The notes beneath the pieces were generated by a model. That model had not been told where the DNA came from, searched no databases, and worked only from the letters and a program-made list of their open reading frames with translations. From NCBI RefSeq assembly GCF_007995245.1, contig NZ_VCBA01000001.1, positions 62,001-126,000 on the forward strand: 64,000 bases of DNA, read 5' to 3'. This stretch comes from Tateyamaria sp. syn59. Its GTDB lineage: Bacteria; Pseudomonadota; Alphaproteobacteria; Rhodobacterales; Rhodobacteraceae. The translations under genes were made by a program, and so were the position numbers. Positions within the stretch are counted from its first letter, which is position 1, and every line of letters starts with the position of its first letter. Below are positions 30,050-49,131 of the stretch, in pieces.

Positions 30050-30226
30050 CAGCGTAGGGCGAAGCCGTGCGCGTCGCCCGGCAGCGTATCAAGCGTCAGC
30101 TTGCTGGCGCGTAGCCTGACAGCGTATCGCACAGTGATGCGCGAGACGGTGCATAGCGATGCGCGAGAGGGTTCGTGCCAATGGGCGAAACGCTATTTAC
30201 AGGCACCTTTCGAATTGAACACCAAA

Positions 30227-30286
30227 GGGCGGAATCAAGGCCACAGGCCGCCGCCCCATCGCCGGGCCGCCCCCCGGCACGGCGAT
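30227..30286. repeat. 60-nt double-hairpin repeat, copy A
   Basis: Hairpin 1: GGGCGG (30227-30232), AATCAA, GGCC-ACA-GGCC (30239-30249), G, CCGCCC (30251-30256). Hairpin 2: 30258-30286, ATCGCCG with CGGCGAT outside, GCCG with CGGC inside, loop CCCCC. A second copy of exactly the same length lies at 48989-49048 and differs by paired changes in the stems. Confidence 0.8.
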
Positions 30287-30401
30287 ATGGTTGATGTCTG
30301 CGCGTCGCTCAGATCGAAGATGTACCTGGCAACCATATAGCACTGCTGCGGAGAGGCCGGATCGCCGCACCGCGGCCCGTCAGCCACGTGGTTGAAGCCG
30401 C

Positions 30402-30689
30402 TCACTTTGGGATTTCATGTTTGCCAATTAGACCGTCGTCTTCTTGGCTTCGAAATCTCGCAAGCTGCTCCTGCGTTCGTTCTTTCATGACATTTGCGTC
30501 GAAACCGTCATGGAAAGTCCGAGAGTCAGCGTTTGCATTTATTCTTGCAGGTACTTGGAACCCTAAAGCGCTTTCGAGCACTTGCCGCATTGCCTCACTG
30601 CGGGAGCAGTTCCATTCGAAGGCTTTCTCGTCCAGTGCCTTTATCACTTCTTCGCTTAACGTAACTGACATGCGTCCACTTTTTTTCAT
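30402..30689 (-). CDS. Ribbon-helix-helix protein (CopG/Arc-like)
   Basis: 95 aa. The N-terminus RMSVTLSEEVIKALDEKAFE followed by CSRSEAMRQVLESALG has the beta strand and two helices of a ribbon-helix-helix DNA-binding domain, residues about 5-48. The remainder is charged and probably disordered. It starts 2 nt after the stop of an upstream 58-aa membrane protein, with AAGGAAGGTAGGG as ribosome site, so the two form an operon. Base composition is clearly more AT-rich than the surroundings. It could be an autoregulator or antitoxin-like protein; no toxin motif is seen in its partner. Confidence 0.75.
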   Translation of the reverse strand: MKKSGRMSVTLSEEVIKALDEKAFEWNCSRSEAMRQVLESALGFQVPARINANADSRTFHDGFDANVMKERTQEQLARFRSQEDDGLIGKHEIPK

Positions 30690-30691
30690 CC

Positions 30692-30868
30692 CTACCTTCC
30701 TTTAAACACAAGTTGGATTAGGGCCACCAAAGCCGACGTTCCAAAAAACAGCATCCCTAATTGTGCCATGGGACTACCTCCAAGAGGTAAGAAACTGGCC
30801 GCAACAAGCTCATCCGCAATCGTCAAAAGCATTGCAATTGATGTAGTAAAAACCAAACTAAACTGCAT
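30692..30868 (-). CDS. 58-aa membrane protein upstream of the RHH gene
   Basis: ATG at 30868 with TTAGAGG just upstream; stop TAG at 30694-30692. Starts MQFSLVFTTSIAMLLTIADE and ends in FKGR. Two hydrophobic segments (about 2-17 and 35-54, MAQLGMLFFGTSALVALIQL) are separated by a short loop with LPLGGSP, suggesting a hairpin-like two-helix membrane protein. It is directly coupled to the ribbon-helix-helix gene and has a CtrA-like box about 45 nt upstream. AT-rich compared with neighbours. Function unknown; a holin-like or toxin-like role is speculation. Confidence 0.6.
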   Translation of the reverse strand: MQFSLVFTTSIAMLLTIADELVAASFLPLGGSPMAQLGMLFFGTSALVALIQLVFKGR

Positions 30869-30911
30869 CCTCTAACTCCCATTTGCCTTTGGAATCAGGC
30901 TAGGACGAAAA

Positions 30912-30928
30912 GGTTAACCACACGTTAC
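30912..30928 (-). promoter_or_regulatory. CtrA-like box upstream of the small operon
   Basis: On the minus strand this reads GTAA, CGTGTGG, TTAACC: the same GTAA-N7-TTAACC form as the box at 29946. It ends about 44 nt before the ATG of the 58-aa protein, where a CtrA-activated promoter would place it. Confidence 0.5.
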
Positions 30929-31080
30929 CTTATGCACCACTTTGGACGCACCACCTTAAGTTGAGATAGTCTAGGGCCAGGACATGCTCTATCTTTATGA
31001 AAAAATAAATTTCTTCTTCTGTGTTTAAAAGCCGGCAATCAAAGCGTTAGATTGAGTGTTCTCTACGAGTGGGAGCTCAC

Positions 31081-33036
31081 TCAAACATCCAACTCCTCCA
31101 CAAACCGCGCGTTCTCTTGGATGTATTGAAACCGCATCTCCGGCTTCTTGCCCATCAAACGCTCGACCAGGTCGCCGGTCTCGCCCGGTTCATCCTCGTC
31201 AATCGACACTCGGATCAGCTTGCGTGTCGCGGGGTTCATGGTGGTGTCTTTCAGGTCCTTCGCGTCCATCTCGCCCAGACCCTTGAAGCGGGACACGTCG
31301 ATCTTGCCCTTGCCGCCCAGACCGCTCTCCAGCATCGTGTTCTTCTCGATCTCATCAAGGCAATAGACACGCCGGGCCCCCTGCGTCAGCCTGAACAGGG
31401 GCGGACAGGCGAGGTACAGGTGCCCCGCATCAATCATGGGCCGCATCTGGGTGTAGAAAAACGTCATCAAAAGGGCTGCGATATGCGCGCCGTCCACGTC
31501 GGCGTCGGTCATGATGATGACCTTGTCATAGCGCAGATCATCCAGATTGAACTTCGCCCCCAGCCCCACGCCAAGCGCCTGAGTCAGATCGGAAATCTCG
31601 GCATTCGAGCCCAGTTTGGACGAGGCCGCGCCCAACACGTTCAGGATCTTGCCGCGCAGTGGCAGAAGGGCTTGTGTTTTGCGGTCCCGCGCCATCTTGG
31701 CCGATCCGCCCGCAGAATCTCCTTCGACAATGAATAATTCCGTACGGTCCCGTGTTGAAGAAGAGCAGTCCACCAATTTGCCGGGAAGCCGTAGTTTCTT
31801 AGTGGCGGATTTGCGTTGTGTTTCCTTCTCGGCCCTCCTGCGCAGCCGTTCCTCGGCGCGCAGGACCAGAAAATCAAGGATGGCCCCGGCAGATTTGGTG
31901 TCGGCGGCCAGCCAGTTGTCAAAGTGGTCGCGGACCGAGTTCTCGACCATCCGCTGCGCCTCGACCGTGGCGAGCCGGTCCTTGGTCTGGCCCACGAATT
32001 CAGGCTCGCGGATAAAGCAGGACACCAGCGCACCGGCCCCGGTGGTCAGGTCTTCGCGCGTGATGGTGCTGGCCTTCTTGTTGTTCACCAACTCGCCATA
32101 GGCCTTGATCCCCTTCAGGATCGCGGCCCAGAACCCGGCCTCGTGCGTGCCGCCCTCGGGCGTGGGTACGGTGTTACAATAGCTCTGGATGAACCCGTCG
32201 CGCGACGGCGTCCAGTTGATCGCCCATTCGACCTTGCCCGGCACCTGGAACTTCTCGAACGACACCGACCCGGCAAAGGGGGCTTGCGAATAGGTGGTGG
32301 CCCCGCCCAACGCCTCGGTAAGGTAGTCGGACAGACCGCCGGGAAAGTGGAACGTCGCCTCGCGCGGTGTCTCGCCATCGTCGATGCCGGACTTCCAGCG
32401 GATTTCCACGCCTGAGAACAGATAGGCCTTCGACCGTGCCATCTTGAACAGGCGGGCAGGCTTCAGCTTGAGCGACCCAAAGATCTCCGCATCCGGGTGA
32501 AAGGTGACAGCCGTGCCGCGCCGGTTGGGCGCTGCGCCTACCTTCTCCAGCTTTCTCTGAGGCACGCCCCGCGCGAACTCCATCGCATACAACTCGCGAT
32601 TCCGCGCCACCTCGACCCGGAGATGGTCCGACAGGGCGTTCACGACGGAAGACCCAACCCCGTGCAGACCACCCGACGTCTCGTAACTGTCGCCCGAAAA
32701 CTTGCCGCCCGCGTTCAGCGTGCAGAAAATGATCTCAAGCGCCGACTTCGACGGATCTTTCGGGTGCGGATCGGTGGGAATGCCACGCCCATTGTCGCGC
32801 ACCGACACATGGCCGTTCTCGTGCAGCTCAACCTCGATCCACGTGGCATGCCCCGCGACCGCCTCGTCCATCGAGTTGTCGATGATCTCGGCCACCATGT
32901 GGTGCAGCGCGCGGTCATCCTTGCCCCCGATATACATGCCGGGGCGCAGGCGCACGTGCTCCATATCCTCCAACACCTGGATCGAGGATGCGTCATAGTC
33001 GGAAGACTTGGGTGTCCCGCTCAGAAGGTCGGTCAT
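31081..33036 (-). CDS. parE: DNA topoisomerase IV subunit B
   Basis: 651 aa. GHKL ATPase motifs are EIIDNSMDEAVAG and DNGRGIPTD, with TSGGLHGVGSSVVNALSD as the ATP lid. The Toprim part has EGDSAGGSAKMARDR and IIMTDADVDGAHIAALL. It pairs with ParC to decatenate chromosomes. ATG at 33036 gives MTDLLSGTPKSSDYDAS; a 10-codon upstream extension is unlikely. Assigned ParE rather than GyrB because of its length and the absence of the GyrB insert; ParC is not in the window. Confidence 0.92.
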   Translation of the reverse strand: MTDLLSGTPKSSDYDASSIQVLEDMEHVRLRPGMYIGGKDDRALHHMVAEIIDNSMDEAVAGHATWIEVELHENGHVSVRDNGRGIPTDPHPKDPSKSALEIIFCTLNAGGKFSGDSYETSGGLHGVGSSVVNALSDHLRVEVARNRELYAMEFARGVPQRKLEKVGAAPNRRGTAVTFHPDAEIFGSLKLKPARLFKMARSKAYLFSGVEIRWKSGIDDGETPREATFHFPGGLSDYLTEALGGATTYSQAPFAGSVSFEKFQVPGKVEWAINWTPSRDGFIQSYCNTVPTPEGGTHEAGFWAAILKGIKAYGELVNNKKASTITREDLTTGAGALVSCFIREPEFVGQTKDRLATVEAQRMVENSVRDHFDNWLAADTKSAGAILDFLVLRAEERLRRRAEKETQRKSATKKLRLPGKLVDCSSSTRDRTELFIVEGDSAGGSAKMARDRKTQALLPLRGKILNVLGAASSKLGSNAEISDLTQALGVGLGAKFNLDDLRYDKVIIMTDADVDGAHIAALLMTFFYTQMRPMIDAGHLYLACPPLFRLTQGARRVYCLDEIEKNTMLESGLGGKGKIDVSRFKGLGEMDAKDLKDTTMNPATRKLIRVSIDEDEPGETGDLVERLMGKKPEMRFQYIQENARFVEELDV

Positions 33037-33099
33037 GGCAGCTGCTCTTTGTTGATTGGCGGCCACTATGCCAGAGCGGATCAGACGGGGGAAGAGTGA

Positions 33100-33783
33100 T
33101 CAGGCAGGCCAGTGGGTGCCAAGCACGCCCGCTGCCTGCTGAGCGGTCACCATCTCCTGATACCGGTCCATCTGGTGATCAAAACGCAGGAACCTGCGCT
33201 CTCCTTCACCGGCATGCACCTCGCCCAGATGCTGAAAGCTCGAGGGCAGGTCGCAGACCTTGTCGTCGTTGCGGTTCAGGCACAGGCATTTCGAGGCGGG
33301 CGCCGGTTGCACGATCCCCCGCGTCACGCGCGGCGCGGCAAAGGCGATGCCCGGCACATCATGGGTGCGCACAAGGATCTGCGTGGCCGCGGCGCCCAGC
33401 GAATGACCGACGATGTACTTCGGACGGTAGCCCTTCACCTGCATCCAGTCAGCGATCACCTTGGCATGTCGCATAAACCCTTGGTGCCAGATCACGTCAT
33501 GTGCCCCCCACTTGTCGGTCAATTCGTCATTCAGGCGGTACTTCTTGCCACCGAAATTCAGAACCCGCAGGTTGAACTTCATGTAGTCGGCCACCGAATT
33601 CGACCCGGGGATCAGTAGGATATTCTGTTTCAGAAACACGGCCTGAACGTGGTTTTTGTTCAGCTTGTCCTTCACATGCGCATCCAGCGATGTTCTGGGC
33701 GGGCGGCGCTTGAACAAAAGGTATGAGGCTTCGACCATCTTGGCCGCTCGTGCGATTTCGTATCTATGGGTCACTGAAAACAT
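33100..33783 (-). CDS. Class 3 lipase-like alpha/beta hydrolase
   Basis: 227 aa, no signal peptide. The nucleophile elbow is VGHSLGAAAT (Ser128), as in class 3 lipases, and IAFAAPRVTRG follows, also typical. A likely catalytic Asp lies in NRNDDKVCDLP and a His in RFDHQMD. The gene starts at the ATG at 33783, after an AT-rich spacer. Substrate unknown; cytoplasmic location is inferred. Confidence 0.75.
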   Translation of the reverse strand: MFSVTHRYEIARAAKMVEASYLLFKRRPPRTSLDAHVKDKLNKNHVQAVFLKQNILLIPGSNSVADYMKFNLRVLNFGGKKYRLNDELTDKWGAHDVIWHQGFMRHAKVIADWMQVKGYRPKYIVGHSLGAAATQILVRTHDVPGIAFAAPRVTRGIVQPAPASKCLCLNRNDDKVCDLPSSFQHLGEVHAGEGERRFLRFDHQMDRYQEMVTAQQAAGVLGTHWPA

Positions 33784-33846
33784 CCGTCATTTAAAAATAT
33801 GCACGCGACTATGGCGCGAACAAACGGGTCTGTGAAGCCTGCTGGT

Positions 33847-34713
33847 CTAAGCCAGCCAATTCCGAACGATGCTGGCAACCTCGCCCGGTTTCTGATGCAG
33901 CAGCCAATGATCTGCGCCATCCACATGCGCGCGGGTCAATGCGGGGGCAAATTCTTCCAGTCCTTCTGTCGACACGGGCAGCAACGCAGTGTCCCCGTCG
34001 GCCCAGACCAGAAGGTGAGGACAGCGCACCTGCAACCGGTCCAGTGGCAGGTCTGGCATGGGGACTGGGACACCGGGATCCGCCACGATCAAGGGTGAGG
34101 CGCGATACCAGTTGATCATGCCCTTCAACCCCGATTGGCGCCATACGGCCTTGTAGGCGTATAGCCGTTCGCCATGCAGCCACGACATGTCCATCTCGGC
34201 GGAAAACAGGCTCAGCAACTTGCTAAAGTCGTCCGCAGCCAAGGCATCCTCTGATCCCGGACTGCGCAGGAAGTTGATGTATTGCGACGCCTCAGATTGT
34301 GCGCCGCCCGCAGCCATGGCGCGTTGGAACGGCACCGGGTGCACGCCATTGGCAATGATCAGATAGGACACCAGGTCAGGGCGGAACATGGCGAGGGCAT
34401 AGGCGACAGATGCACCCCAATCATGACCCATGACGATGACAGGCCCTGCGTCGCCGATGAGGTCGGCCATGTCACTGACCAGCTTTGATGTGGCATAGGC
34501 TCCAACATCATCCGGTGCATAACTTGCGCCATATCCGCGCTGATCTGGGGCAACACAGTGATACGTATCGGCCAGGCGCTTTGCGACCTCGTCCCATGCA
34601 CCACCGTATTCGGGAAACCCGTGCAGCATCAGCAGCATCGGCAACCCCGGATCACCCCAACTGCGGATCGTGAATGCGTGCCCGCCCAAATTCCGGGTGC
34701 TGACCTGCATCAT
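33847..34713 (-). CDS. Alpha/beta hydrolase, epoxide-hydrolase-like
   Basis: 288 aa. HGFPEYGGAW (31-40) is the oxyanion-hole HGxP motif, DQRGYGAS the following loop, and GHDWGASVAYA puts Asp98 as nucleophile, the sign of epoxide hydrolases and haloalkane dehalogenases rather than esterases. The acid is likely in WADGDTALLP and the base in DGADHWLLHQKPGE. ATG at 34713 overlaps the stop of the upstream secreted hydrolase, so the two are cotranscribed. Substrate unknown. Confidence 0.85.
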   Translation of the reverse strand: MMQVSTRNLGGHAFTIRSWGDPGLPMLLMLHGFPEYGGAWDEVAKRLADTYHCVAPDQRGYGASYAPDDVGAYATSKLVSDMADLIGDAGPVIVMGHDWGASVAYALAMFRPDLVSYLIIANGVHPVPFQRAMAAGGAQSEASQYINFLRSPGSEDALAADDFSKLLSLFSAEMDMSWLHGERLYAYKAVWRQSGLKGMINWYRASPLIVADPGVPVPMPDLPLDRLQVRCPHLLVWADGDTALLPVSTEGLEEFAPALTRAHVDGADHWLLHQKPGEVASIVRNWLA

Positions 34714-35999
34714 TGCCCTTGCGGCAACGTCTCGAACCGCAGGCCTTTGGCCGTCCGGGGCGCAAAGCCACGCCAATAGGTATGATCCTCGGTCGGTGTG
34801 CCCGCGTCATCCAGCGCCACGATCCCGTCCGCGGCGTTTGGCACCAGCTCAAGGTATTCGGCTTTCTCGCTGTCAGATTTTAAGTGCAGGCCGAAAAAGG
34901 CCGTCGCGAAGTGCTGGGCGATGTTGTTCATGCGCGTCGTGTCCCACACCGCATCGGCATAATGCTCGAACGGCACAAACTCGAGGCCCTCAACCGGCTC
35001 CCAGCTTTCCTTGGGCGCGGGCATGGGGGCAGCGGCGTTGTGGTTGGCATAGTCAAATGTCAGCAAATGCCGGTCCGTCCCTGCGGCACCGGTGAAAAAG
35101 GCGCGCATCGCACCATAGACAGACACATCGTCATCGCTGCCTGCCATGAACAGGGTTGGCACCCGCAGGTCGGCCACGCCGCTTGCGTCCCAGAACCCTG
35201 CGTTGTTGCCCCAGGGGCCCACAGCGATGATGGCCTTGACCCTGCTGTCCATCAACGCCTCATGGCTTTCGGATTGCTCAAGATGTGCCTCAAGCAATCC
35301 GTTGGGCGCGCCCCAGCTGAACTCGGTTGAGGCTTGCGTCACGCCCGCCCCGCCAAAGATCAGCGCACCATAGCCCCCCATCGAATAGCCGATGACGCCT
35401 GTATTGTTGGCATCAATGATATCGCCGATCGGGCCGGTCAGCCCCGCCATGTGATCCAGGACAAAGGCCTGGTCCAAGGGGCGGTTGTAGAGGGTCGAGC
35501 CAAAGGCCGCCTGATCCGAATACAGGCTGTCCGTATGATCAATCGAAACGGTGACATAGCCTTTTGAGGCAAGATTCTCGCCCAGATGGCTCATCAGGTA
35601 GCGGTTGCCGGGATAGCCGTGGCTGATGATCACCAGAGGAAAGCGTGTGCCTGTCGCGGGTGGGGCGTCGCGGGCGGCACGACCGGTCAATGTCACTTCG
35701 GATGTGCCGTCGCGCAACATGGCGGTGTATGTTCCACCCTGCGCGGTGCCTTCTGCCGCCGGATACCACACCTCAAGCGTCAAGGGCCGGTCATACCTCG
35801 GAATGACACCTTCCGACACGTTCAGCACATCAACGCTGTCGGGCATTGCAACCTCAAGCGTTTGCACCCCGATGGGCAAGGGGCCATAGGGTGCCAGCTC
35901 GGGTGCGTCAGGTCGGATCTGATCAATCGGATTGCCCGACGCAGCAGCGCCTGCCAACGTCGCAACAACGGCCAGACCAGTGGCGCGGGGGATGGTCAT
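34710..35999 (-). CDS. Exported alpha/beta hydrolase (PAF-acetylhydrolase/dienelactone-like)
   Basis: 429 aa with a signal peptide (ATGLAVVATLAGAAASGNPI). VIISHGYPGNRYLMS is the oxyanion region and IGYSMGGYGALIF gives Ser206 as nucleophile. The layout, with an N-terminal beta region including LEVWYPAAEG, matches plasma PAF-acetylhydrolase-like bacterial esterases. ATG at 35999 has AAAGGAAAT upstream, better than the ATG 18 nt before. It is first in a two-gene unit with the epoxide-hydrolase-like gene. Probably periplasmic esterase. Confidence 0.82.
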   Translation of the reverse strand: MTIPRATGLAVVATLAGAAASGNPIDQIRPDAPELAPYGPLPIGVQTLEVAMPDSVDVLNVSEGVIPRYDRPLTLEVWYPAAEGTAQGGTYTAMLRDGTSEVTLTGRAARDAPPATGTRFPLVIISHGYPGNRYLMSHLGENLASKGYVTVSIDHTDSLYSDQAAFGSTLYNRPLDQAFVLDHMAGLTGPIGDIIDANNTGVIGYSMGGYGALIFGGAGVTQASTEFSWGAPNGLLEAHLEQSESHEALMDSRVKAIIAVGPWGNNAGFWDASGVADLRVPTLFMAGSDDDVSVYGAMRAFFTGAAGTDRHLLTFDYANHNAAAPMPAPKESWEPVEGLEFVPFEHYADAVWDTTRMNNIAQHFATAFFGLHLKSDSEKAEYLELVPNAADGIVALDDAGTPTEDHTYWRGFAPRTAKGLRFETLPQGQ

Positions 36000-36186
36000 T
36001 GGAATTTCCTTTGGCAAGATTCAACCTATGGTAACATACCAATCAACTATAGCGCCACTTTGACAGAGCTATTTTCGAGTGCAAGCAATGTCTTGCGCTA
36101 AAAGCCAGGGGGGTGGGGCAGCGCAGCTTTGCCCAGATGCCGAAACGGGGTTGAGGCTGCATGCACCTGCCCCTAAATCTGGACGC

Positions 36187-36822
36187 ATGCGTTTAAGTCG
36201 TTCCCTTGCCCTCGCCACGGCTCTCGCCTTGCCTGCAACGATGTCGGCGGCGCACCCCCACGTCTTCGTCGATACAAAGCTGCGTGTCGTGGTTGCCGAC
36301 GACGGCAGTTTTGAGGGGTTAGAGGTGCAGTGGACCTATGACGACTTCTATTCCCTGCTTCTGCTGACCGACTATGGCATGGACAATGACGGCGACGGTC
36401 AGCTCACCGACAGCGAGCTCAAGCGGCTCGACGGGTTCGACCTGCAATGGATACCGGGGTTCGAAGGCGACAGCTATGCGCTGCTGGAAGGCACGCCGGT
36501 CAAACTGGGTAAACCGCAGGGGCGCGGCGTGTCCGTTGATGCCGGTCGCATCACTACAGTACACTTTCGGCCCGCCAAGGCATCTGCGGACGGGCTGGTG
36601 CTCAAGGCATATGACCCGACCTTCTATACGGCGTATGACCTGATCGGACCGGTCGCTGTCGATGGGCCCTGCGATGCAGCGATCCAGCCAGCCGACCTTG
36701 ATGCCGCCTACACGCTGGTCGAAGAACTGCTCTACGCCACGCCAGCCGCAGAGGTTGAGGCGGCCTATCCCGAAGTGGGCGAAGCGTTCGCCGATACGGT
36801 CACGCTCTCATGCTCTGGCTGA
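36187..36822 (+). CDS. DUF1007 periplasmic protein with an EF-hand loop
   Basis: 211 aa. Signal peptide (SLALATALALPATMSAA), then AHPHVFVDTKL, the hallmark start of mature DUF1007 proteins with a His-x-His that may bind metal. Residues 66-77 (DNDGDGQLTDSE) are a canonical EF-hand calcium loop, with D66, D68, D70, Q72, T74 and E77 at the ligand positions. ATG at 36187. It overlaps the NicO transporter gene by 13 nt; DUF1007 plus NicO is a common pairing linked to transition-metal transport. Confidence 0.85.
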   Translation: MRLSRSLALATALALPATMSAAHPHVFVDTKLRVVVADDGSFEGLEVQWTYDDFYSLLLLTDYGMDNDGDGQLTDSELKRLDGFDLQWIPGFEGDSYALLEGTPVKLGKPQGRGVSVDAGRITTVHFRPAKASADGLVLKAYDPTFYTAYDLIGPVAVDGPCDAAIQPADLDAAYTLVEELLYATPAAEVEAAYPEVGEAFADTVTLSCSG

Positions 36823-37700
36823 GGATCGGCGTCGCTCTTTGCATCGGCGGCGCAGTTTTGTGGCTGTTTGGGTTCGGTGGTTTGGCGGACATTGGCCAGT
36901 GGGCGGCGATCCAACAACGCGACACCCAGAACGCCCTCGCGGGTAGCTTGCGCGCGGTGCGCGCCGGTGACCCCGGAGCCTGGCTGGCGCTGATGGGGCT
37001 GTGCGCCGCCTATGGCTTTTTCCACGCGGCAGGGCCGGGGCATGGCAAGCTTGTTATAGGCGGTTACGGCGCGGCGGAGCGGGTCACGGCCCGGCGACTG
37101 TCCGTGCTGGCCGTGGCGTCGTCTTTGGCGCAGGCCTTGATGGCGATCCTTCTCGTGGCGCTTGGCGCCTTCGTGTTGGGCTGGGGGCGCAGTGAAATGA
37201 CGGACACCGCAGACCGTATCCTCGCACCGGCAAGCTATATCGCGATCGCGCTTGTCGGCTTGTGGTTGGTGGTGCGCGGCCTGCGGCGCACCCGTGGCGC
37301 TGCGGTCCACGTGCATCACATTGATGAAGACGGTCACTGCAGCAGCTGCGGCCATGCGCATGCGCCCAGTCCCGCACAGGCGGCGGCGGTGACATCCTGG
37401 CAGGACGCGGCGGCCATCATCGGTTCAATCGCGATCCGCCCCTGCACCGGCGCGGTGTTTCTCCTGATCTTGTGTTTCGGGCTAGGTATCCCGTGGGCGG
37501 GTATCGCAGGCGCCTTGGTCATGGGCCTCGGCACGGCCAGCGTTACGGTTCTGGTGGCACTTGCCGCAGTGGGCGCGCGCCAGTCCGTGCTGGCGGGCTG
37601 GTCGGGGGCCGGAGCGGTCCGGGCCATGGGCGTGATCGAGGTGGCCGCAGGCGCCCTGATCGCCCTGATCGCCACTGCGCTCGTCCTTCCGCTTCTCTGA
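36810..37700 (+). CDS. NicO-family nickel/cobalt transporter
   Basis: 296 aa, about six membrane helices. HAAGPGHGKLVIGGYG is the conserved H-x-x-GPGHGK motif of NicO proteins. A cytoplasmic or periplasmic loop is rich in metal ligands (VHVHHIDEDGHCSSCGHAHA), as in RcnA-type exporters. IAIRPCTGAVFLLILCFGLG is the second conserved helix region. The metal and direction cannot be told; the DUF1007 partner gene upstream overlaps it. Confidence 0.87.
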   Translation: MLWLRIGVALCIGGAVLWLFGFGGLADIGQWAAIQQRDTQNALAGSLRAVRAGDPGAWLALMGLCAAYGFFHAAGPGHGKLVIGGYGAAERVTARRLSVLAVASSLAQALMAILLVALGAFVLGWGRSEMTDTADRILAPASYIAIALVGLWLVVRGLRRTRGAAVHVHHIDEDGHCSSCGHAHAPSPAQAAAVTSWQDAAAIIGSIAIRPCTGAVFLLILCFGLGIPWAGIAGALVMGLGTASVTVLVALAAVGARQSVLAGWSGAGAVRAMGVIEVAAGALIALIATALVLPLL

Positions 37701-37781
37701 GCATTACGCCACGGGCAGTATCCCATCACCCGCATCACGCGAGGTCTTCACTTGCTCAAAAAGCAGGCGTAAGGGTGGGGT

Positions 37782-39170: not shown

Positions 39171-39173
39171 AGA

Positions 39174-39191
39174 GGGGCGGAAAGACGCCCC
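39174..39191 (-). terminator. Short hairpin between convergent genes
   Basis: GGGGCG (39174-39179) pairs with CGCCCC (39186-39191) around a 6-nt loop. On the minus strand the hairpin is followed by TCTTTAG, so it could end the leftward aspartate-aminotransferase transcript. Confidence 0.4.
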
Positions 39192-39204
39192 GCCCGCCGT
39201 CCCG

Positions 39205-39606: not shown

Positions 39607-39619
39607 ATACCAACCCTCG

Positions 39620-40837
<1,218 letters not shown>

Positions 40838-40913
40838 CTAGCGCGGTATCCAGCCCCTCATAGGCGGCAGCCCCCGCGCAATCAAGCGCCAGGACCACGA
40901 AGGAGAAGACCAC

Positions 40914-41312
40914 ATGGACGATCTGCAGGACTGGTACAGCGCCGATGCGGCAACCTTTGGCGACCGTGTGGCAGGCGCGCGCGAGCAGGCAGGCATGACG
41001 CAAAAGCAGCTCGCCAAGCGGCTGGGCGTGCGTCTGGCGACCCTGCGGTCGTGGGAAGACGACCTGAGCGAGCCGCGCGCCAACCGCCTGTCGATGATGG
41101 CCGGGCTGCTGAACGTGTCCATGATGTGGTTGATCAACGGCGAAGGCGAAGGGCTGGACGCACCGATAGAGGAAGAGCCGCTGACCGCAGACATGCGCGA
41201 CCTGCTGACCGAAGTGCGCGACATGCGCTCGGACATGCTGGCGCGGGCCGAGCAGCTGGGCCGTCTGGAAAAGAAACTCCGCGCCGCGATGCAGGCCCCC
41301 GCCGATGTCTGA
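40914..41312 (+). CDS. XRE-family helix-turn-helix regulator
   Basis: 132 aa. A Cro/C1-type HTH lies at about residues 18-70: AREQAGMTQKQLAKRLGVRL followed by LRSWEDDLSEPRANRLSMMA. The C-terminal third is a helical segment (MRDLLTEVRDMRSDML) that may form a coiled coil. AAGGAGAAG precedes the ATG. It overlaps sdhE by 8 nt, so it is cotranscribed with that assembly factor. Target genes unknown. Confidence 0.87.
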   Translation: MDDLQDWYSADAATFGDRVAGAREQAGMTQKQLAKRLGVRLATLRSWEDDLSEPRANRLSMMAGLLNVSMMWLINGEGEGLDAPIEEEPLTADMRDLLTEVRDMRSDMLARAEQLGRLEKKLRAAMQAPADV

Positions 41313-41571
41313 GGAACTGCGCGAACACCGCCTCAAGCGGCTGCACATGCGTTCCATGCGCCGCGGGATCAAGGAAATGGACCTGATCCTGTCAGCCTAT
41401 GCTGGCCGTCATCTGGCGGACATGACAGATGCCGAGCTGGATACCTATGACGCGATGCTGAACGAAAACGATCAGGATTTGTATCGCTGGGTCACGGGAC
41501 AAGAGGCGCCTCCGGCCCGTATCGCGGCCCTGATCGAAGACGTCTCACGCACGTTTCAGCCCGAAAAATAA
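41305..41571 (+). CDS. sdhE: Succinate dehydrogenase flavinylation factor SdhE
   Basis: 88 aa, the family's usual size. The RGxxE motif is RGIKE (20-24) within MRRGIKEMDLILSAYA, required for covalent FAD attachment to SdhA; DLYRWVTGQEAPP near the end is also typical. A small cytoplasmic helical-bundle protein. It overlaps the HTH gene by 8 nt. No sdh structural genes are in the window. Confidence 0.92.
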   Translation: MSEELREHRLKRLHMRSMRRGIKEMDLILSAYAGRHLADMTDAELDTYDAMLNENDQDLYRWVTGQEAPPARIAALIEDVSRTFQPEK

Positions 41572-41649
41572 GGGCTCTGCGGCATTTAACTGAATATTTC
41601 CGAATCATCCGCATTTTCTGGGCTGAGCAGATCAGGTCGGAGAAGACGG

Positions 41650-42171
41650 ATGAGCATTCAGGACCCCATTGGCCAGGTCCCCGGGGTGGCCGAACGAAAC
41701 GCAGCGAACGCGGGCTTCATGGTCGGGTATCTTGAGGCGCTGTCGCTGGTGGAGCGGTTGCACCGGCTGCTGCTCGACGTCATCAAGGACGAATTCGAAC
41801 GTGTCGGCGTGCTGGAAATCAACGCAGTTCAGGCGCTCCTCCTGTTCAACATCGGCGACAACGAGGTGACGGCAGGCGAGCTGAAAAGCCGCGGCTACTA
41901 CCAGGGCTCCAACGTCAGCTACAACCTCAAGAAGCTGGTCGAAATGGGTTACATGCACCACCAGCGGTGCGAGATTGACCGCCGCTCGGTCCGGGTCAAG
42001 CTGACCGACAAGGGGCGCAAGATCCGCGACGTGGTGAACGAGCTGTTCCTGCGCCACGCCGAAGGGCTGCAATCCAAGGGTGTGCTCGGCCCCGAAGGGA
42101 TCATCGACATTACCGCGTCGCTCAAGCGGATGGAACGGTACTGGACCGACCAGATCCGGTACATCTACTGA
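41650..42171 (+). CDS. MarR-type winged-helix regulator, LdtR-like
   Basis: 173 aa. The winged helix spans about 50-140: VQALLLFNIGDNEVTAGELK, recognition helix around YYQGSNVSYNLKKLVEMGY, wing around RSVRVKLTDKGRK. The overall sequence resembles LdtR of Liberibacter and Sinorhizobium, which controls an L,D-transpeptidase and stress genes. GGAG lies upstream of the ATG. It stands between sdhE and convergent DUF1194 genes; no transpeptidase is nearby. Confidence 0.82.
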   Translation: MSIQDPIGQVPGVAERNAANAGFMVGYLEALSLVERLHRLLLDVIKDEFERVGVLEINAVQALLLFNIGDNEVTAGELKSRGYYQGSNVSYNLKKLVEMGYMHHQRCEIDRRSVRVKLTDKGRKIRDVVNELFLRHAEGLQSKGVLGPEGIIDITASLKRMERYWTDQIRYIY

Positions 42172-42174
42172 CGA

Positions 42175-42945
42175 CTACTTGGATGACTGCGCGCCATCAG
42201 GCGCGGGGGTCGCATCGGGAAACCGGGGCAGGGGGCCCTTGCCCAGAATAAGTGTCTCCAACTCGCGCTCCAGCTTGCGGGCCATGGCGGCGGCATAGTC
42301 CTCAAACCCCAGCGCAGTCTCCACAAAGCTGTCAGAGCCGACAATGACATTGTTCTGGAAATAGGCCGAGAGTTCCGAAATCTCCGCCTGCCGTGCATCA
42401 CCAAAGCTGGGTGCATCCGCGCCAATGACCAGCGCATTGATGGTGATGCCCGTGGCCTCCACCTCCGGCTTTACATCCACGGGCCGGATGCCCAGGTTCG
42501 ACTTCCCATCGCCGGAAATGTCCAGGGTCAGCTTCCAGCAATCCCTCCGCTCCATGAGATGCGCCACACCCTCGCGCATGGCCAGACCCAGCGCGGTCCC
42601 AGGACTGGCCAGCCGCCGCTCGGTCGCGCGCAAATGTCCGATCACGGCGTCCAGAGCCGATGCGCTGTCAATGGCCGTCCAGGGCAGGATGACGGCAGGG
42701 TCTTCGGGCCCGCTCCACTCGTAGACCAGCAGATGCACCGGCGCTGATGGCATCTGCAACAGGGCCTGCCGCACGCGGCCGCTGTCCAGCGCCTCGGCCA
42801 GCCCGTCCATCTGCAATTGGTATTCCAGCGCGTCAACCGACCCCGACACATCCAGCCCCAGCGCCAACGCCTGCCGACAGGCCCCCTGCGCGCTGGCACC
42901 GATCATCCCCGCACAACAGGCCATGATCAGCGCTGCCGCCCTCAT
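42175..42945 (-). CDS. DUF1194 exported von Willebrand-A protein, second of a pair
   Basis: 256 aa with a signal peptide (ALIMACCAGMIGASAQGA). LALGLDVSGSVD is the metal-ion-dependent adhesion site (DxSxS) of a vWA domain. The central ISGDGKSNLG and FEDYAAAMARKLERELE near the end match DUF1194. Its start overlaps the preceding paralogue's stop by 4 nt. It is probably a periplasmic metal-dependent binding protein of unknown partner. Confidence 0.83.
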   Translation of the reverse strand: MRAAALIMACCAGMIGASAQGACRQALALGLDVSGSVDALEYQLQMDGLAEALDSGRVRQALLQMPSAPVHLLVYEWSGPEDPAVILPWTAIDSASALDAVIGHLRATERRLASPGTALGLAMREGVAHLMERRDCWKLTLDISGDGKSNLGIRPVDVKPEVEATGITINALVIGADAPSFGDARQAEISELSAYFQNNVIVGSDSFVETALGFEDYAAAMARKLERELETLILGKGPLPRFPDATPAPDGAQSSK

Positions 42946-43670
42946 CCGCCGCGCTGTCCGGTGTCGAGGCTGCCAATGATGGGCGGTGTCAACTCACGCT
43001 CCAGCTTCCGGCGCATCGCGCGCTGGTAATCTTCAAACCCCTGGGCCACTTCCAGAAATGCTCCGGGCCCGCGCAACACTTCGCGCTCATAGAACTCGAT
43101 CAGCATGGTTTCGGACGTGAACTCGGCAGCGTTCACCACCAGTCCGTTCACCGTCACCTCATCAAAGGGAAACTCGCGATAGGCCAGTTGCGGCCCAAAC
43201 CCTTCGTTGTTCTGCCCGTCGCCCGCCATGTCGATGGTGCGATACAGACACTCCGGCGCGCGCCCCAGCATCTCTGCCCCAAAGCCCAGTGCATAGCCCA
43301 TGGCCGTGGGAAACTCATTATGCGACCGCTTGCTCGCGGCGACAGTCTCCGCCGCGTCCAACAATGCCGCAGGGCTGTCGATCAGCGTCCAGTCCAACAC
43401 CACTTCCTGATTGTACCGGCCCGACCACTCGTACACGGCCAAGGCCACCGGATCATCGGTGGCAAAGAACGCGGCCCGCACCTCTGGCGCGGTCAGCGCC
43501 GCGACCAGACCGCCGCGCTGCAACTGGTCTTCTGTCGCATCGACCGAAGACGACACGTCCAGCGCCAAAAGCAGCGCCAACCTGCACGCCGCGGCAGGGG
43601 ATGCCGCGACGCACAAGGCCAAACAGACCGCAGGTCTTACCAATGGCCCGTGTTTTCCATGCTCGCCCAT
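42942..43670 (-). CDS. DUF1194 exported von Willebrand-A protein, first of a pair
   Basis: About 242 aa. The hydrophobic leader VCLALCVAASPAAAC may be a plain signal peptide. LLLALDVSSSVDATEDQL carries the DxSxS MIDAS, and IDMAGDGQNNEGFGP parallels the paralogue next to it. The two share layout and the FEDYxxAMRRKLEREL end, so they arose by tandem duplication. The start overlaps the gloA gene by 34 nt; a TTG at 43643 would reduce this and is possible. Confidence 0.8.
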   Translation of the reverse strand: MGEHGKHGPLVRPAVCLALCVAASPAAACRLALLLALDVSSSVDATEDQLQRGGLVAALTAPEVRAAFFATDDPVALAVYEWSGRYNQEVVLDWTLIDSPAALLDAAETVAASKRSHNEFPTAMGYALGFGAEMLGRAPECLYRTIDMAGDGQNNEGFGPQLAYREFPFDEVTVNGLVVNAAEFTSETMLIEFYEREVLRGPGAFLEVAQGFEDYQRAMRRKLERELTPPIIGSLDTGQRGG

Positions 43671-44065
43671 GGCTCTTGCGCGGGCAGGGCATCACCTGCT
43701 TGCAACAACTCGATCGAGACGTTGTCGGGCGACCGGACAAAGGCCATGTGCCCGTCGCGCGGCGGACGGTTGATGGTCACACCATTGTCCATAAGGTGCT
43801 GACACATCTCGTAAATATTGTCGACGCGGTAGGCGAGGTGACCAAAATGCCGACTGTCGCTGGGCAACTCATCATCGCCATCCCAGTTGTACGTCAGCTC
43901 GACAGGACATTCCGGCTGGTCCGGCGGTGCCATGAAGATTAGGGAAAACCGCCCGCCCTCGCTGTCGTGGCGGCGCGTCTCTTCGAGGCCCAACAGCTTG
44001 TAAAATGCCATTGAGGCATCAAGGTCCTTCACGCGGACCATTGTGTGCAAATAGGTCAAAGCCAT
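43637..44065 (-). CDS. gloA: Lactoylglutathione lyase (glyoxalase I)
   Basis: 142 aa VOC metalloenzyme. The four metal ligands of E. coli GlxI are all present: His7 (LHTMVRV), Glu56 (VELTYNWD), His76 (HFGHLAYRV) and Glu119 (SIELLQ). It isomerises the methylglyoxal-glutathione hemithioacetal. ATG at 44065 (MALTYLHTMVRV) is preferred over an ATG 18 nt upstream. It could be confused with methylmalonyl-CoA epimerase, but the ligand spacing and VELTYNW favour glyoxalase I. Confidence 0.88.
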   Translation of the reverse strand: MALTYLHTMVRVKDLDASMAFYKLLGLEETRRHDSEGGRFSLIFMAPPDQPECPVELTYNWDGDDELPSDSRHFGHLAYRVDNIYEMCQHLMDNGVTINRPPRDGHMAFVRSPDNVSIELLQAGDALPAQEPWASMENTGHW

Positions 44066-44136
44066 GTGGGCGGTCTCCGTCAAACAGTGAATGTTGACGC
44101 TAACCTAGCATAGCCCCCGGCGGGTACCAGCGGCTC

Positions 44137-45519
44137 TCAGAACTTTGATTGAATGCCTACCGAGATCGTTGTCTCGTCAATCTCGAACCGGTTCACGTTG
44201 GACGTCCTGCGCCCCGTACGCAGACGCACAGTCGGGGCAAACCCGGCAAAGTCGTAATCCTTGAAGAACAATGACACGTCGCCATAGAGGCTTTCATCCT
44301 GCCGGCCGCCTTCGACGGTGCGCACAAGCCGGTATTCGTCGTATTCGGTGTGGCCAAGAGTCAGTCCAGTCGAAATTTCCACCGGCCCTAATTGCTTGCC
44401 AAACGTGTAGCTCGCCCGCACGCTCGCTGTCTGGTACGCGGCGTTCACGAAATCGCCCTGGATGTCCTGAACCGTCAGGCCAATGCTGAACCTGTCGCCG
44501 CCGTCCAGCTTGTGGCTGTACGTGGCCCCCAACGTCAACACATCCAAATCGCGCAGACTGGTCGCTGTGGAAAAACGTTTCTCGACACCGCCGCGCAGGG
44601 TCAGGCGGCTTGCATCACCCACGGTCAGGCTCCGGCTCAGCGACAGCTTTGCAAAATCGTAAGACCGCTCACCCCCCGACCAGCTTGCGCCAAGGGCGCC
44701 TCCCACCGTTACAAAGTGACCAGGCGCTCCAAGCGCGATCAGATGTTCAATGCCGGTTTCTACATAGGTGGACCCGAAATCGCTGTTGCGCAGATCCGGC
44801 ACACTGGCTTGCGCCTCATCGCTCAGGTCAACGCGCCGCGTATACAGGCGCCCCGTCGCGGTCGTTCGGCTTTTTTGGCCTTGCGCCAGGCGATATTGCA
44901 ATTGCACGTCCATGGTCCCGACTGTTCCGTCCAAGGCGCGTGAACTGGGCCGGAACACTCCCAGCGTCGGCACGTCGTTGACCACCTCAAGCACATTGTC
45001 GGTGCCGTTATTGACGTTGTCGGATGGGGCGACTGAGAAGTTGATGTTGAACCGAAGCGGGTTGGCGGCCCTGACGCGACCGTAGTCCTGAGCCAGCGCT
45101 TTTTCCTGCGCGTCCGTGTCTGCATGTGTCGCGGCCAGACGCAGCCAGCCTTGAGAGACGGTGGGGCGGTCCTGCTGAAACGCGACGCTTGCCGCGGTGC
45201 GTGCCGCGCCAAATTTTTCTGTGCGTGTATCGCTGTATTTGTAGGACAGGCGTGCTGCCGCCCGCGCTAGCTTCGGATCGTTCAACCGCGAATGCGCCGC
45301 AGCCAGGACGCCGTAGGCATAGGCATCCTCTGGATCTGCGCGCACAAGCACCATCGCGACATCACGCGCCAGATCAAACCGCCCTGCATAGAGTGCCTGA
45401 CGCGCCAGAATGCGCGCTTCGTCCAGATTGAAGGTCCGGTTGCCGTCAGATTGCTGTGGATCCGTTGCCCCTGCCGACGCCCATAGGGTCAGCAGGGCAC
45501 CAATAAGCGCGCGTTTCAT
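44137..45519 (-). CDS. Slam-like outer-membrane lipoprotein translocator (DUF560)
   Basis: 460 aa. Signal peptide (LIGALLTLWASAGA), an N-terminal TPR-like region (about 28-135, with ARILARQALYAGRFDLARDV) and a C-terminal beta-barrel region (about 155-460) with alternating aromatic strands that ends in ISVGIQSKF, the terminal Phe typical of BamA-assembled barrels. This layout matches surface lipoprotein assembly modifiers. It directly follows a lipoprotein gene with a TbpB-like barrel domain, the usual Slam substrate, 6 nt apart. Confidence 0.8.
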   Translation of the reverse strand: MKRALIGALLTLWASAGATDPQQSDGNRTFNLDEARILARQALYAGRFDLARDVAMVLVRADPEDAYAYGVLAAAHSRLNDPKLARAAARLSYKYSDTRTEKFGAARTAASVAFQQDRPTVSQGWLRLAATHADTDAQEKALAQDYGRVRAANPLRFNINFSVAPSDNVNNGTDNVLEVVNDVPTLGVFRPSSRALDGTVGTMDVQLQYRLAQGQKSRTTATGRLYTRRVDLSDEAQASVPDLRNSDFGSTYVETGIEHLIALGAPGHFVTVGGALGASWSGGERSYDFAKLSLSRSLTVGDASRLTLRGGVEKRFSTATSLRDLDVLTLGATYSHKLDGGDRFSIGLTVQDIQGDFVNAAYQTASVRASYTFGKQLGPVEISTGLTLGHTEYDEYRLVRTVEGGRQDESLYGDVSLFFKDYDFAGFAPTVRLRTGRRTSNVNRFEIDETTISVGIQSKF

Positions 45520-45525
45520 CCGCCC

Positions 45526-46521
45526 TTACGGCTGCAGCGCGTTCACGCAGACCGGGTCAGTGTCCGCGGCCGTACACAGATCAAGGACAAACACACCACG
45601 CTCGATTTCGTTGTCAAAGGTTTCCAGAACGTCCGTCACTTCGGTGCCGCCCGCCATGAACTGGCCCTCGCTGCCCCCGATGACGCCAGCAAAGTCGCCA
45701 ATGTCGGCCCGTTCAGTCGAGCCGGGGAAGGCCGGATCTCTCGTATCCACTTCGATGTTTCCGCTGAACGTGCCCTCGCCGGTGAGGGTGCCGTCCACCA
45801 GCACAATGTCCTGCATGTCGAAGTTTCCGCCGCTTGTGACGGCAGTCCGGTTATAGATTTCGCCCTCGACCGACATGTCGTTGAGGTCGACGTTCACAAA
45901 CATCAGGCCACGTACATAAGCCGCCTGGTTCGGCGTGTTGACATCCGGGTCAATGCCCGGTGTCGGGAAAATGTCGGTACGAGGGCCGTCCAAGTTCAAA
46001 CCCGCAGCGTAGTTGCCATAATAGGTGACGTCGAACCGGCTTTCCGGCGCGGTCGGCGCAACATAGTCGCCCGTCCTGTCAAAATAGACGCCGCCGAAAA
46101 ATGTGTTGAACTGGGGACCGGTCAAAACCACCCCCGCCTGCACACCGTCACGGCTTGCCACGAAAGCCGTGGCATGGCGGCCCAGCGGATCGTTCTGGCC
46201 GGTAAATGTCTCGTACCCGTCGACAAAGCTGGTGGCCACGTGCCGGTACTCGTTGACCAGCGGGACACCATCCTGGCTAAGGCCCGTGACCGTCAGCGTG
46301 TTCGTCGCCGCGTCAAAGCTGATGCTTTCCAGATCGCTCGCGATGGCTTCCGGCACGGCCAGTGGGTTCGTTGGCGTGGTTGGCTCCGTCGGCGTCGTGG
46401 GATCAACCGGGGCCGTCGGTGCACCACCGGCATCCGCGTCGTCCGTTGAAGTAAAGGGGTTACCGTCCCCGCACGCCGCCAAAAGCGCGGCAAGCGCAAG
46501 CACTGCTGCTGTCCGTGTCAT
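45526..46521 (-). CDS. TbpB-like surface lipoprotein, likely Slam substrate
   Basis: 331 aa. Signal peptide with lipobox LLAACG (Cys17), then a Thr/Pro-rich linker (PTAPVDPTTPTEPTTPTNPL), then a beta-rich domain. The C-terminal part has LTGEGTFSGNIEVDTRD and GDFAGVIGGSEGQFMAGG, typical of the eight-stranded TbpB/HpuA-type barrel recognised by Slam. Two Cys near the C-terminus may pair. It is first in a two-gene operon with the translocator. The ligand is unknown. Some databases call such proteins thymidylate synthase, a spill-over from the adjacent thyX. Confidence 0.78.
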   Translation of the reverse strand: MTRTAAVLALAALLAACGDGNPFTSTDDADAGGAPTAPVDPTTPTEPTTPTNPLAVPEAIASDLESISFDAATNTLTVTGLSQDGVPLVNEYRHVATSFVDGYETFTGQNDPLGRHATAFVASRDGVQAGVVLTGPQFNTFFGGVYFDRTGDYVAPTAPESRFDVTYYGNYAAGLNLDGPRTDIFPTPGIDPDVNTPNQAAYVRGLMFVNVDLNDMSVEGEIYNRTAVTSGGNFDMQDIVLVDGTLTGEGTFSGNIEVDTRDPAFPGSTERADIGDFAGVIGGSEGQFMAGGTEVTDVLETFDNEIERGVFVLDLCTAADTDPVCVNALQP

Positions 46522-46729
46522 GCCTGAAAACCTTTGCGGTCTATTTTACTGCCTCTTTTGTAGAAAGAATCCGCCGTAACCCCCGAAAAGTCAACGCTTT
46601 CGTATGGACGACGATTCGCGCGGGCCAAGAACCGTTGCCAAAAAACGACCCTTATATAGCGGTTCTCATAGGTGCATCCCCAAGATAAGGTATAGGCCTG
46701 ACAGATTCTGTGGATAAAGGACGCGCCCC

Positions 46730-47641
46730 ATGCCGCTCAGCCCCGAACAACAGTCCGAAATCGACGCCCTGCGCGCCCAATCCACCCAAACGCTCCGTGC
46801 CACCGTCCCGGGGATGGAGGCGCATCTGTATAAGGCGCGCGAGGTCCTCGACCACGGCTTTGTCCGCGTTATCGACTACATGGGCGACGACGCCGCCATC
46901 TGCCAGGCCGCGCGGGTCAGCTACGGCAAGGGCACCAAGTCGGTCCAGAATGACGAAGGGCTGATCCGCTACCTCATGCGCCACTGGCACTCGACGCCCT
47001 TCGAGATGTGCGAGATCAAGCTGCACGTCAAACTCCCCGTCTTCGTCGCCCGCCAGTGGATCCGCCACCGCACCGCCAACGTAAACGAATACTCCGCCCG
47101 CTACTCGATCCTCGACCGCGAATTCTATATCCCGGCCGAGGACGCACTCGCTGCTCAATCGGTCGTCAACAACCAGGGCAGGGGCGAAGCACTCACTGGC
47201 GACGAGGCGCAGCGCGTCCTCAACTACCTGCGCGACGACGCCATGCGCTGCTACGACCATTATGAAGAGATGATTTCACAGGACGGCCAACAGGGGCTGG
47301 CCCGAGAGCTCGCCCGCATGAACCTGCCCGCCAATGTCTACACCCAATGGTATTGGAAAGTGGACCTGCACAACCTCTTCCACTTCCTCCGCCTGCGGGC
47401 CGATGCCCACGCCCAATACGAAATCCGCGTCTATGCCGATGCGATCTGCGAAATGGTCAAGGATTGGGTGCCCGCGGCCTACAAAGCGTTCGAGGATTAC
47501 CGGATGGGCGGCGCGACACTTTCAGCCACAGCCCTTGCGTGTATTCAGCGGATGTTGAAAGGTGAAGAGGTAACGCAAGAGAATTCCGGCATGTCCAAGG
47601 GAGAATGGCGGGAGTTTATGGGGGTTATTAGTGGGAAATGA
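46730..47641 (+). CDS. thyX: Flavin-dependent thymidylate synthase
   Basis: 303 aa. The ThyX signature [11 protein letters not shown] (112-122, RHR-x7-S) is intact and followed by [11 protein letters not shown]. It methylates dUMP to dTMP with FAD and methylene-tetrahydrofolate. ATAAAGGA lies upstream of the ATG at a somewhat long distance. It is divergent from the Slam operon. Its last 11 nt overlap the start of an AT-rich gene of different composition. Confidence 0.95.
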
Positions 47642-48989
47642 CTTAGTACCGGTGAGCCGTGACGATTGTTTTGAGCTTAAAGTCTTGGTGGACGATAAAG
47701 GCCACTATACAATCGAAGTTGACTTTTTTGACGCCTTTGATCAATCGCCCACCGCGGACGAGGTTTTAGCAACGCTTTCTAAAGAAGATTTACTGTTCGC
47801 CGATTTTGACAAGTTGCTCGATCTTTGGGTTTCGACGTCAATGGGTTTCTTTCAAGCCTTTCCTCGGCTTACAAGCGAAGCTTTTACGAGTGCGAATAAA
47901 GAGTCTAGCGCGGCGCTAATGGGGTTCGCCAATTCTGTTGCTTCTGAGATCTCTGAGGTTAAAACCAACGGAGACGTCGTAACGCGATATCTGATTCCAA
48001 ACGAGTGGCTGATCGCAACAGCTGGACGATTGGGTGCTTCAGTAGAAATTCTTAAGTCTGCCCATCTACTACGCCGCTCTTCGCTCAGCGCTCTCGTCGC
48101 CGAGTATGAAGTTTTTCTCAGACAACTCTTACTGCTGGTGTCTCAAGTTCAGCCACAAGCGTTTGTTTCTGAAACAGAAACGATATCGATGTCTGAGATA
48201 GCCCGTCATAGTAGTTTTGAGGATCTCAAAAGATCGGTAATTGACCAGAAAATCGATCAGCTTCTTCAACAAAAGAATCACGTTGAACAACTCGAATGGA
48301 TCGAAAAAAAGTTCGGGGTGAACCTTACCTCCGACAAAGCAATCATTTCCCAGTTTAACGAAGTATGCCAGCGGCGCCACCTTATCATTCATAACGGTGC
48401 GGTTGTAAATCAGAGGTATCTGGATAGCTGCGGTATTCTGGGGCACAAGATTGATGATCTGGAGCCTATTGGTGCAGAGTTGCGTGTTTCTGCAAAGTAT
48501 CTCCGGAGAGCAACAGCTAGGCTATTTTTAGTAGGCTACTTTACGGCGCATATATTGATGCAAAAGGTTTCACCATCTATTGTCCCAGTCTCGTTTAGCA
48601 ACATTATTGAAAATTCGCACGGTTTTTTGACAGCCGGCTTAACTAAAATGGCCCGTAGAGTTTGTGAGTTTGCCCTTGCTTCTAATGCGGACCGACCGCG
48701 TGTAACTGACGCAACTTTGACTATTAATCTTGCTCTGAGTTTCTATCTTCAAAGCAACGGCACGGGAGCAAAAGACCCAGGTGTAGAGAGTTCGTTAAAC
48801 AGGTATGACTGGTCTGACACTTCACCTTTGTATCGGCTAGCGCTGGCCTGCTTGCGGGAAGACTATGAAAACTTGTCAGCCTTGACTGAAGCGGCCAAAA
48901 ATGAAGGTCTGACCAAAGTCGAAGCGCAGACATGGATCATATTTTTGAATGTCCGCGACCGACAGGATTTTTCGAAGCACTTTGAATAG
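47631..48989 (+). CDS. AT-rich protein with HEPN-like R-x4-H motif
   Basis: 452 aa, soluble, unlike its neighbours in base and codon use (many A/T-ending codons), suggesting horizontal transfer. Residues 244-264 ([20 protein letters not shown]) contain R249-x4-H254 in a helix, the catalytic motif of HEPN ribonucleases, in a context like RiboL-PSP/MAE_28990-type HEPN domains. The N-terminal 180 residues and the C-terminal helical region match nothing I recognise. The GTG at 47631 overlaps thyX by 11 nt; a GTG at 47652 is an alternative. It is followed directly by a structured repeat. Confidence 0.6.
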
Positions 48990-49048
48990 CACGGAATCAA
49001 GGCCAAAGGCCGCCGTGCCAGCGCCGGACCGCCCCCCGGGCCGGCGCT
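48989..49048. repeat. 60-nt double-hairpin repeat, copy B
   Basis: Starts on the stop codon of the HEPN-like gene. Hairpin 1: GCACGG (48989-48994), AATCAA, GGCC-AAA-GGCC (49001-49011), G, CCGTGC (49013-49018). Hairpin 2: AGCGCCGG (49020-49027) with CCGGCGCT (49041-49048), inner CCG/CGG, loop CCCCC. Same length and layout as copy A at 30227. Confidence 0.8.
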
Positions 49049-49131
49049 ACATCACCACCAGCGCACCGCCCCACCAAACTCGACAAACGATCACCATAAA
49101 CCGCGCCGCAGCCCCGTCGCTGCGCCAACCC

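Follow-up and report, generated by a model that had tools for sequence, protein, structure and literature searches.

The REP doublets known best occur in genomes that have their own RAYT transposase and a fixed tag. The MITEs derived from DDE insertion sequences are short and non-coding, with inverted ends and many copies, and the attC sites of integrons are imperfect palindromes beside the 3' ends of genes, with gene turnover alongside. Among the REP repeats themselves, Table 1 of PMC3733652 gives no transposase association for the CGTC families. The element described here comes from a stretch of DNA of 64,000 nucleotides (the window), in which a preliminary description had reported two copies of a 60-nt double hairpin with compensatory stem changes and had taken selection for structure, as RNA or as cruciform DNA, to be the simplest reading. 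On the evidence from the window and from related genomes, we consider it likely that these copies belong to a non-coding DNA element, palindromic and dispersed in Rhodobacteraceae, which works in the manner of a REP doublet (REPIN/BIME).

The two copies and the whole element

Both 60-nt copies were found on the + strand, at 30227-30286 and 48989-49048, with the letters, loops and layout that had been claimed for them. Stem 1 is GGGCGG/CCGCCC in the first copy and GCACGG/CCGTGC in the second, stem 2 has a T-A pair replaced by G-C, and the motifs AATCAA, GGCC-ACA/AAA-GGCC and CCCCC are kept in both. In copy 1 the head hairpin (GGGCGG-AATCAA-GGCC-ACA-GGCC-G-CCGCCC) is followed by the left palindrome; in copy 2 the first base is also the last base of the TAG stop codon of the upstream gene. 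The double hairpin is thus real, but it is only the left part of the unit. Shared sequence continues for ~100 nt beyond the second hairpin in a third copy of the same genome, in 30 loci of the family and in at least 119 contig stretches, and the whole element measures ~165 nt. Copy 1 accordingly extends over 30227-30393 on the + strand, with left part, spacer and right palindrome (model span 30223-30393, 136.3 bits), its final ~15 nt looking degenerate, and copy 2 extends over 48989-49153 on the same strand and ends in CCCCGGCT (model span 48985-49153, 105.5 bits). A weak match at 49232-49269 (+ strand, 13.6 bits, E 0.076) is a possible right-end fragment of a further copy. The two copies are beyond chance, given model E-values of 7e-29 and 4e-22, obtained with both copies among the 60 rows from which the covariance model was built, and given a strict core pattern, which misses divergent copies, in 51 of 295 family genomes (at most 93 copies, in G126) with the reversed pattern in none of the 295.

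The anatomy of the element was read from an alignment of 60 copies, made up of the two window copies and 58 of the 70 full-length copies found by pattern, the 58 being picked by length and by mutual similarity below 90%. The left half runs NNNCGG, AATCAA, GGCC-GNA-GGCC, GCCGNNC, arm 1 (ATCGCCGGGCCG), CCCCC and arm 2, and the right half consists of a spacer of ~75 nt with GGACTTGGC and ATAAAG, followed by arm 3, arm 4 and NNNCGGCT. The left palindrome is formed by the foot GCCGNNC together with the hairpin ATCGCC..GGCGAT, and in the alignment arms 3 and 4, together with the right end, repeat the foot and arms 1 and 2 in inverted orientation. As the aligned copies had been selected for GGAATCAAGGCC, the invariance of those letters is by construction. 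The motif AATCAA lies within the first 26 letters in 136 of 151 distinct long model-found copies (loci L004-L152), a biased sample in that most of those loci had been fetched by that word. Copies from the genus itself, found by the model alone, mostly keep ATCAA and have shorter upper stems, such as GCC-GAA-GGC.

The head, a hairpin on one side only with AATCAA as a bulge, is the least ordinary feature of the element, with variable letters that covary with the foot and recur at the right end. In 51 of 60 copies the complement inside the element is identical to the left word, and the same six letters stand at both element ends in 41 of 59 (2000 shuffles gave 29.3 on average and 39 at most), although only 8 of the 26 copies with letters other than GCG at either end agree end to end. 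This agreement is both the basis and the limit of a reading that we regard as quite unlikely, in which the element would represent a distinct class of mobile hairpin DNA with a circular single-stranded form, moved by an unrecognised enzyme, inserting at gene ends and serving as a family-wide site of accessory-gene exchange. Since the NNNCGG word recurs at both ends with its complement inside, ends joined into a circle would set the head hairpin directly on the long stem, as a dumbbell.

Short forms with head, one hairpin and right end occur at L041 4515-4580, L059 3242-3312 and L343 28507-28661, and those in L041 and L059 look like internal deletions. At the site of the L343 short form, a sister plasmid carries the long form. 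Coding in the spacer was set aside by eye, as insertions and deletions break the frame. No version of the element with an open reading frame between its ends, as an autonomous form would have, was seen in 17 partial copies, of which the first 261 bases each were read by eye, a view that would have missed a long insert. Some copies in L024, L037 and L060 are flanked by a further repeat, TTTGGCCTGGAGCGGAC-like on one side and inverse on the other, as judged by eye.

Covariation and alternative folds

In the 60 aligned copies the two claimed local hairpins comprise 22 pairs, with 94.7% of 1317 cells paired and two-sided changes in 12 pairs. Stem changes that are mostly unpaired, which would have refuted the preliminary description, were thus not what the copies showed. 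A long-range fold comprises 29 pairs, with 90.2% of 1732 cells paired and two-sided changes in 19, and reaches a score of 0.245 compared to 0.171 for the local hairpins. Two-sided changes in this many pairs, together with the finding that each fold beats 500 of 500 shuffles and all six slides, support selection for, or concerted upkeep of, paired structure. The original structural reading is supported in part, with DNA as a better fit than RNA.

The second hairpin fared less well as the preferred fold. Its outer pairs hold well, but its inner part pairs better with the far right end of the element: position 8 of arm 1 pairs with arm 2 in 36 of 59 copies and with arm 4 in 57, and position 9 does so in 46 and 55, respectively. 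RNAalifold, run without structure input, also chose the long-range fold. The second hairpin of the 60-nt unit may thus be an alternative fold. For the outer columns of arm 1, arm 2 is a better partner than arm 4, so that the long hairpin cannot be the sole fold either, and the data speak for two alternative folds rather than one. Pairing between arms 3 and 4 is poor (509 of 720 cells). Both palindromes can join end to end as one hairpin or can fold separately; for REPINs, the legend to a figure in PMC3116915 likewise proposes two folds, a hairpin and a 'clover'. As long as only part of a unit is known, covariation between two copies may suggest the wrong hairpin.

Distribution, insertion sites and neighbouring genes

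Of the three occurrences of GGAATCAAGGCC in the genome (4.57 Mb), two lie in the window. The covariance-model search brought up the further copies that the preliminary description had expected, with 11 at E<1e-11 in the same genome (8 of them outside the model rows) and 2-27 at E<=1e-6 in 17 of 19 congeners, the other two having none. In the contig scan that gave the at least 119 stretches, the titles read as Rhodobacteraceae or Rhodobacterales, with Enemella as the one exception. The contig of Enemella evansiae TN21-6 (L097) carries a long copy and is named like Salipiger records, so this copy may be contamination. One copy used as a query matched 96 plasmid records from three genera. Carriage by phages was set aside, as another copy gave 0 matches in 50,697 phage records. 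Nothing on this element was found in the literature, closed journals and supplements aside, and the papers that matched five element words are, by title, all on animals.

Comparison of orthologous sites shows that congeners differ in the presence and orientation of the element. Sets with common flanks reach seven species, and many copies, being orthologous across species, are old. At the L161 locus the element lies between two convergent genes in six species, and in eight congeners that lack it the distance between these anchors is shorter by 168-184 bp, so that the insert is the element and little else (the search of 17 congeners returned 3 of the six carriers, the 8 empty sites, 5 one-sided matches and 1 unmatched genome). 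In another orthologous gap, four genomes (G000, G301, G295 and G298) carry the element in one orientation and three (G305, G300 and G240) in the opposite one, G296 has a decayed remnant, and G297, G303, G308, G302 and G310 are without it; this search covered 19 congeners, of which six more matched on one side only and one was unmatched. No transposition was observed, and no target duplication was seen at the compared loci, where the empty sites are those of other species and not base-exact, and two plasmid searches showed no clean empty site in the best 25 of 98 and the best 25 of 95 records. Neighbouring copies less than 600 bp apart are direct in 14 of 14 pairs from 12 loci (one pair involves a 30-nt fragment), and in one further tandem case the flanks are repeated along with the element. 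Three direct copies in a row were observed at L117 5722-6329 and at L036 5603-6313. Many copies contain other palindromes, nested mostly in arm 1 or the arm 1-2 loop as judged by eye; 37 of 250 model-found rows are at least 186 nt long, some of these being orthologous and a few long for other reasons.

Gene context was called with a home-made codon-usage gene caller for 153 pattern-found copies, of which 117 were assessable, 33 lacking a called gene on one side and 3 overlapping called genes. These copies, which are not independent as many lie in the same genome, occupy 70 convergent, 42 co-directional and 5 divergent gaps, compared to 33, 214 and 113 among 360 control gaps from the same loci (P 1.5e-27), and dropping three duplicated copies altered none of the 117. 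The element is therefore intergenic, near 3' ends and rare in divergent gaps. Its position at gene 3' ends, together with the strong covariation and a minimum free energy of -100 kcal/mol for one copy folded as RNA, is what an RNA element would show, either as a stabiliser of mRNA 3' ends or as a small RNA with a selected fold, and RNA roles are argued for REP-type repeats in passages of PMC3733652. Such a role is nevertheless improbable, as orientation within co-directional gaps is neutral (22:20 by strand), a single orthologous gap holds the element in either orientation or not at all, and a predicted terminator separates the stop codon from the element at 37 of the 167 gene ends that could be assessed, compared to 41 of 269 control ends (30 of 197 flanking ends lay too close to the element). 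Wobble pairs are also rare. The inner long-range helix has 3 among its 401 standard pairs, whereas 26 tRNAs of the same loci have 11 among 181 in their acceptor stems; expressed as one-sided to two-sided changes this contrast is small (3:75 and 8:68), so the scarcity of wobble is support and not proof. The whole window gave 0 matches to Rfam families at gathering cut-offs. Relaxing the threshold to E<=5 in four loci brought up no family that covers the element; a sub-threshold sX6 match overlaps its last 5 nt in L158. A role as intrinsic terminator was not supported, since among 152 long copies a GC hairpin with a T run was scored in only 18 on the + strand and 22 on the - strand. Neutral orientation, convergent sites, few wobble pairs, differences in presence and orientation, nested palindromes and the missing Rfam match favour, at the level of sequence, what would be a dispersed DNA element rather than an RNA.

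Some orthologous copies border slots of species-specific, often AT-rich genes. To the right of copy 1 a variable slot holds an AT-rich ribbon-helix-helix (CopG-type) gene at 30402-30689 (- strand), and an AT-rich gene at 47631-48989 (+ strand), with a HEPN_RiboL-PSP match below the curated cut-off, ends in the stop codon that abuts copy 2; both are neighbours outside the element. That the copies lie beside AT-rich genes holds for both in the window (GC 0.46-0.48 vs 0.61 for the window) and is only a weak tendency over all copies. The mean GC drop in the family is 0.012-0.019 within 470 bp to the right and 0.015 within 150 bp to the left, and in the genus 16-19% of flanking 300-bp stretches are below 52% GC compared to 6% of 120 distant stretches. 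With so small an effect, AT-rich neighbours were discarded as a rule.

The element and its left flank are common to seven species at the copy 1 locus. The slot that separates the element there from a gene of the gyrase B family has 43-53% GC, and in it only G297 and G298 show nucleotide similarity beside the element. At a second locus, which from its letters we take to be that of rpmJ, five species share the element and the right flank, and the left stretch differs in each. In addition, the gene content of two conspecific Pseudosulfitobacter plasmids is different at seven junctions, and a copy adjoins four of these, the genes concerned including HipA, RelBE twice and others. Differing sequence abutting the same ancestral copy at two loci, and these plasmid differences, would be expected if the element were an integron-like, attC-like recombination site and accessory genes arrived as a gene with its palindromic site. 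We hold this to be very improbable, as variable genes are found to the left and to the right of the element and in both directions, the two plasmids have RelBE pairs beside copies that are no more than 75% alike, and arrays of alternating genes and sites were not noticed in passing. Gene turnover beside copies may reflect homologous exchange through dispersed copies, or it may reflect mere tolerance of convergent gaps as safe places. Separately, L255 1568-3145 and L290 1814-3401, from two congeners, have ~1.5 kb in common at 96% identity (98% over ~1 kb), beginning at an element copy to the left of which the flanks are unrelated; this is probably a recent exchange, the edge of which lies at the element or close to it.

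Mobilisation and comparison with known systems

No mobilising enzyme was identified in searches with Y1_Tnp (PF01797, RAYT-type) and HTH_Tnp_1. Y1_Tnp has no match in the genome of the window or in the genomes with 49 and 22 copies, and it is not associated with the element, being present in 6 of 51 genomes with the strict pattern compared to 24 of 244 without. The genome with the most copies, G126, does have one intact Y1_Tnp match, so that genome may harbour a REP-type mobiliser. A GTAG-type REP dimer (GGCGGGATGAAATCCCGCCCTAC ... GTAGGGCGGGGTTTCACCCCGCC) was observed at 49294-49359, ~140 bp to the right of copy 2, although the genome is without a Y1 transposase match. HTH_Tnp_1, of the IS3 type, does not track copy number in 14 genomes; as a candidate it was rejected, the highest numbers of matches (11 each) belonging to G310 and G302, with 0 and 2 element copies.

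These searches bear on the alternative that the element is a MITE, a non-autonomous derivative of a classical DDE insertion sequence with ends GCCGCGC-ATCGCC.. that was moved by the transposase of that sequence. The inverted ends (in 70 copies the ungapped match score has a median of 17, with 21 in the best rows listed), copy numbers of up to 93 per genome and insertion polymorphism agree with such an origin, and yet it is unlikely. A head of 23 nt lies outside the inverted repeats, with its AATCAA intact in 136 of the 151 long model-found copies, biased as that sample is; no target duplication was seen, the empty sites being from other species; and HTH_Tnp_1 is unlinked to copy number. By its left end the element is not a classical MITE.

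As a REP-like DNA element, copies could have spread as non-autonomous units by means of a trans-acting enzyme that recognised them either as folded single strands or as inverted repeats, and that many present hosts may lack. They would be tolerated where they are least harmful, in the gaps between convergent genes, and may act, through their dispersed homology, as crossover points for swaps of accessory genes. This well-bounded doublet is widespread in an important marine group, without a REP tag and not tracking RAYT-type genes, which raises the question of what enzyme is responsible for the spread of such repeats. Slots that differ in toxin-antitoxin and other accessory genes are marked by some of the copies, making the element a usable landmark for gene exchange in roseobacters.

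With MITEs the element shares small size, absence of coding, inverted ends and many copies, but its inverted repeats end 23 nt before the left boundary, no target duplication was seen, and no parent was found in the little that was searched (HTH_Tnp_1, 14 genomes). With attC sites it shares an imperfect palindrome beside gene 3' ends and gene turnover, but it has variable genes on either side and in both directions. Like the GTAG and CGTC REPs of PMC3733652, it is a dimer with a spacer in the range of 20-100 nt and prefers convergent and co-directional gaps near 3' ends; unlike them, it has a foot GCCGNNC whose variable letters covary with the head, and in the 60-copy alignment neither tag stands at this foot. 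We file the element beside the REPINs and not within them, because that tag is absent and Y1 transposases are not associated with it, though the 93-copy genome has one. It differs from the REPIN/BIME units of PMC3116915 in this missing association with RAYT-type transposases, in its length of ~165 nt and in an extra head hairpin on one side only, and it resembles them in having two inverted palindromes with a spacer that are able to form one hairpin, in its alternative folds as a long hairpin or as separate hairpins, in its intergenic position, in direct tandem clusters that include the flanks and in insertions in or beside existing copies.
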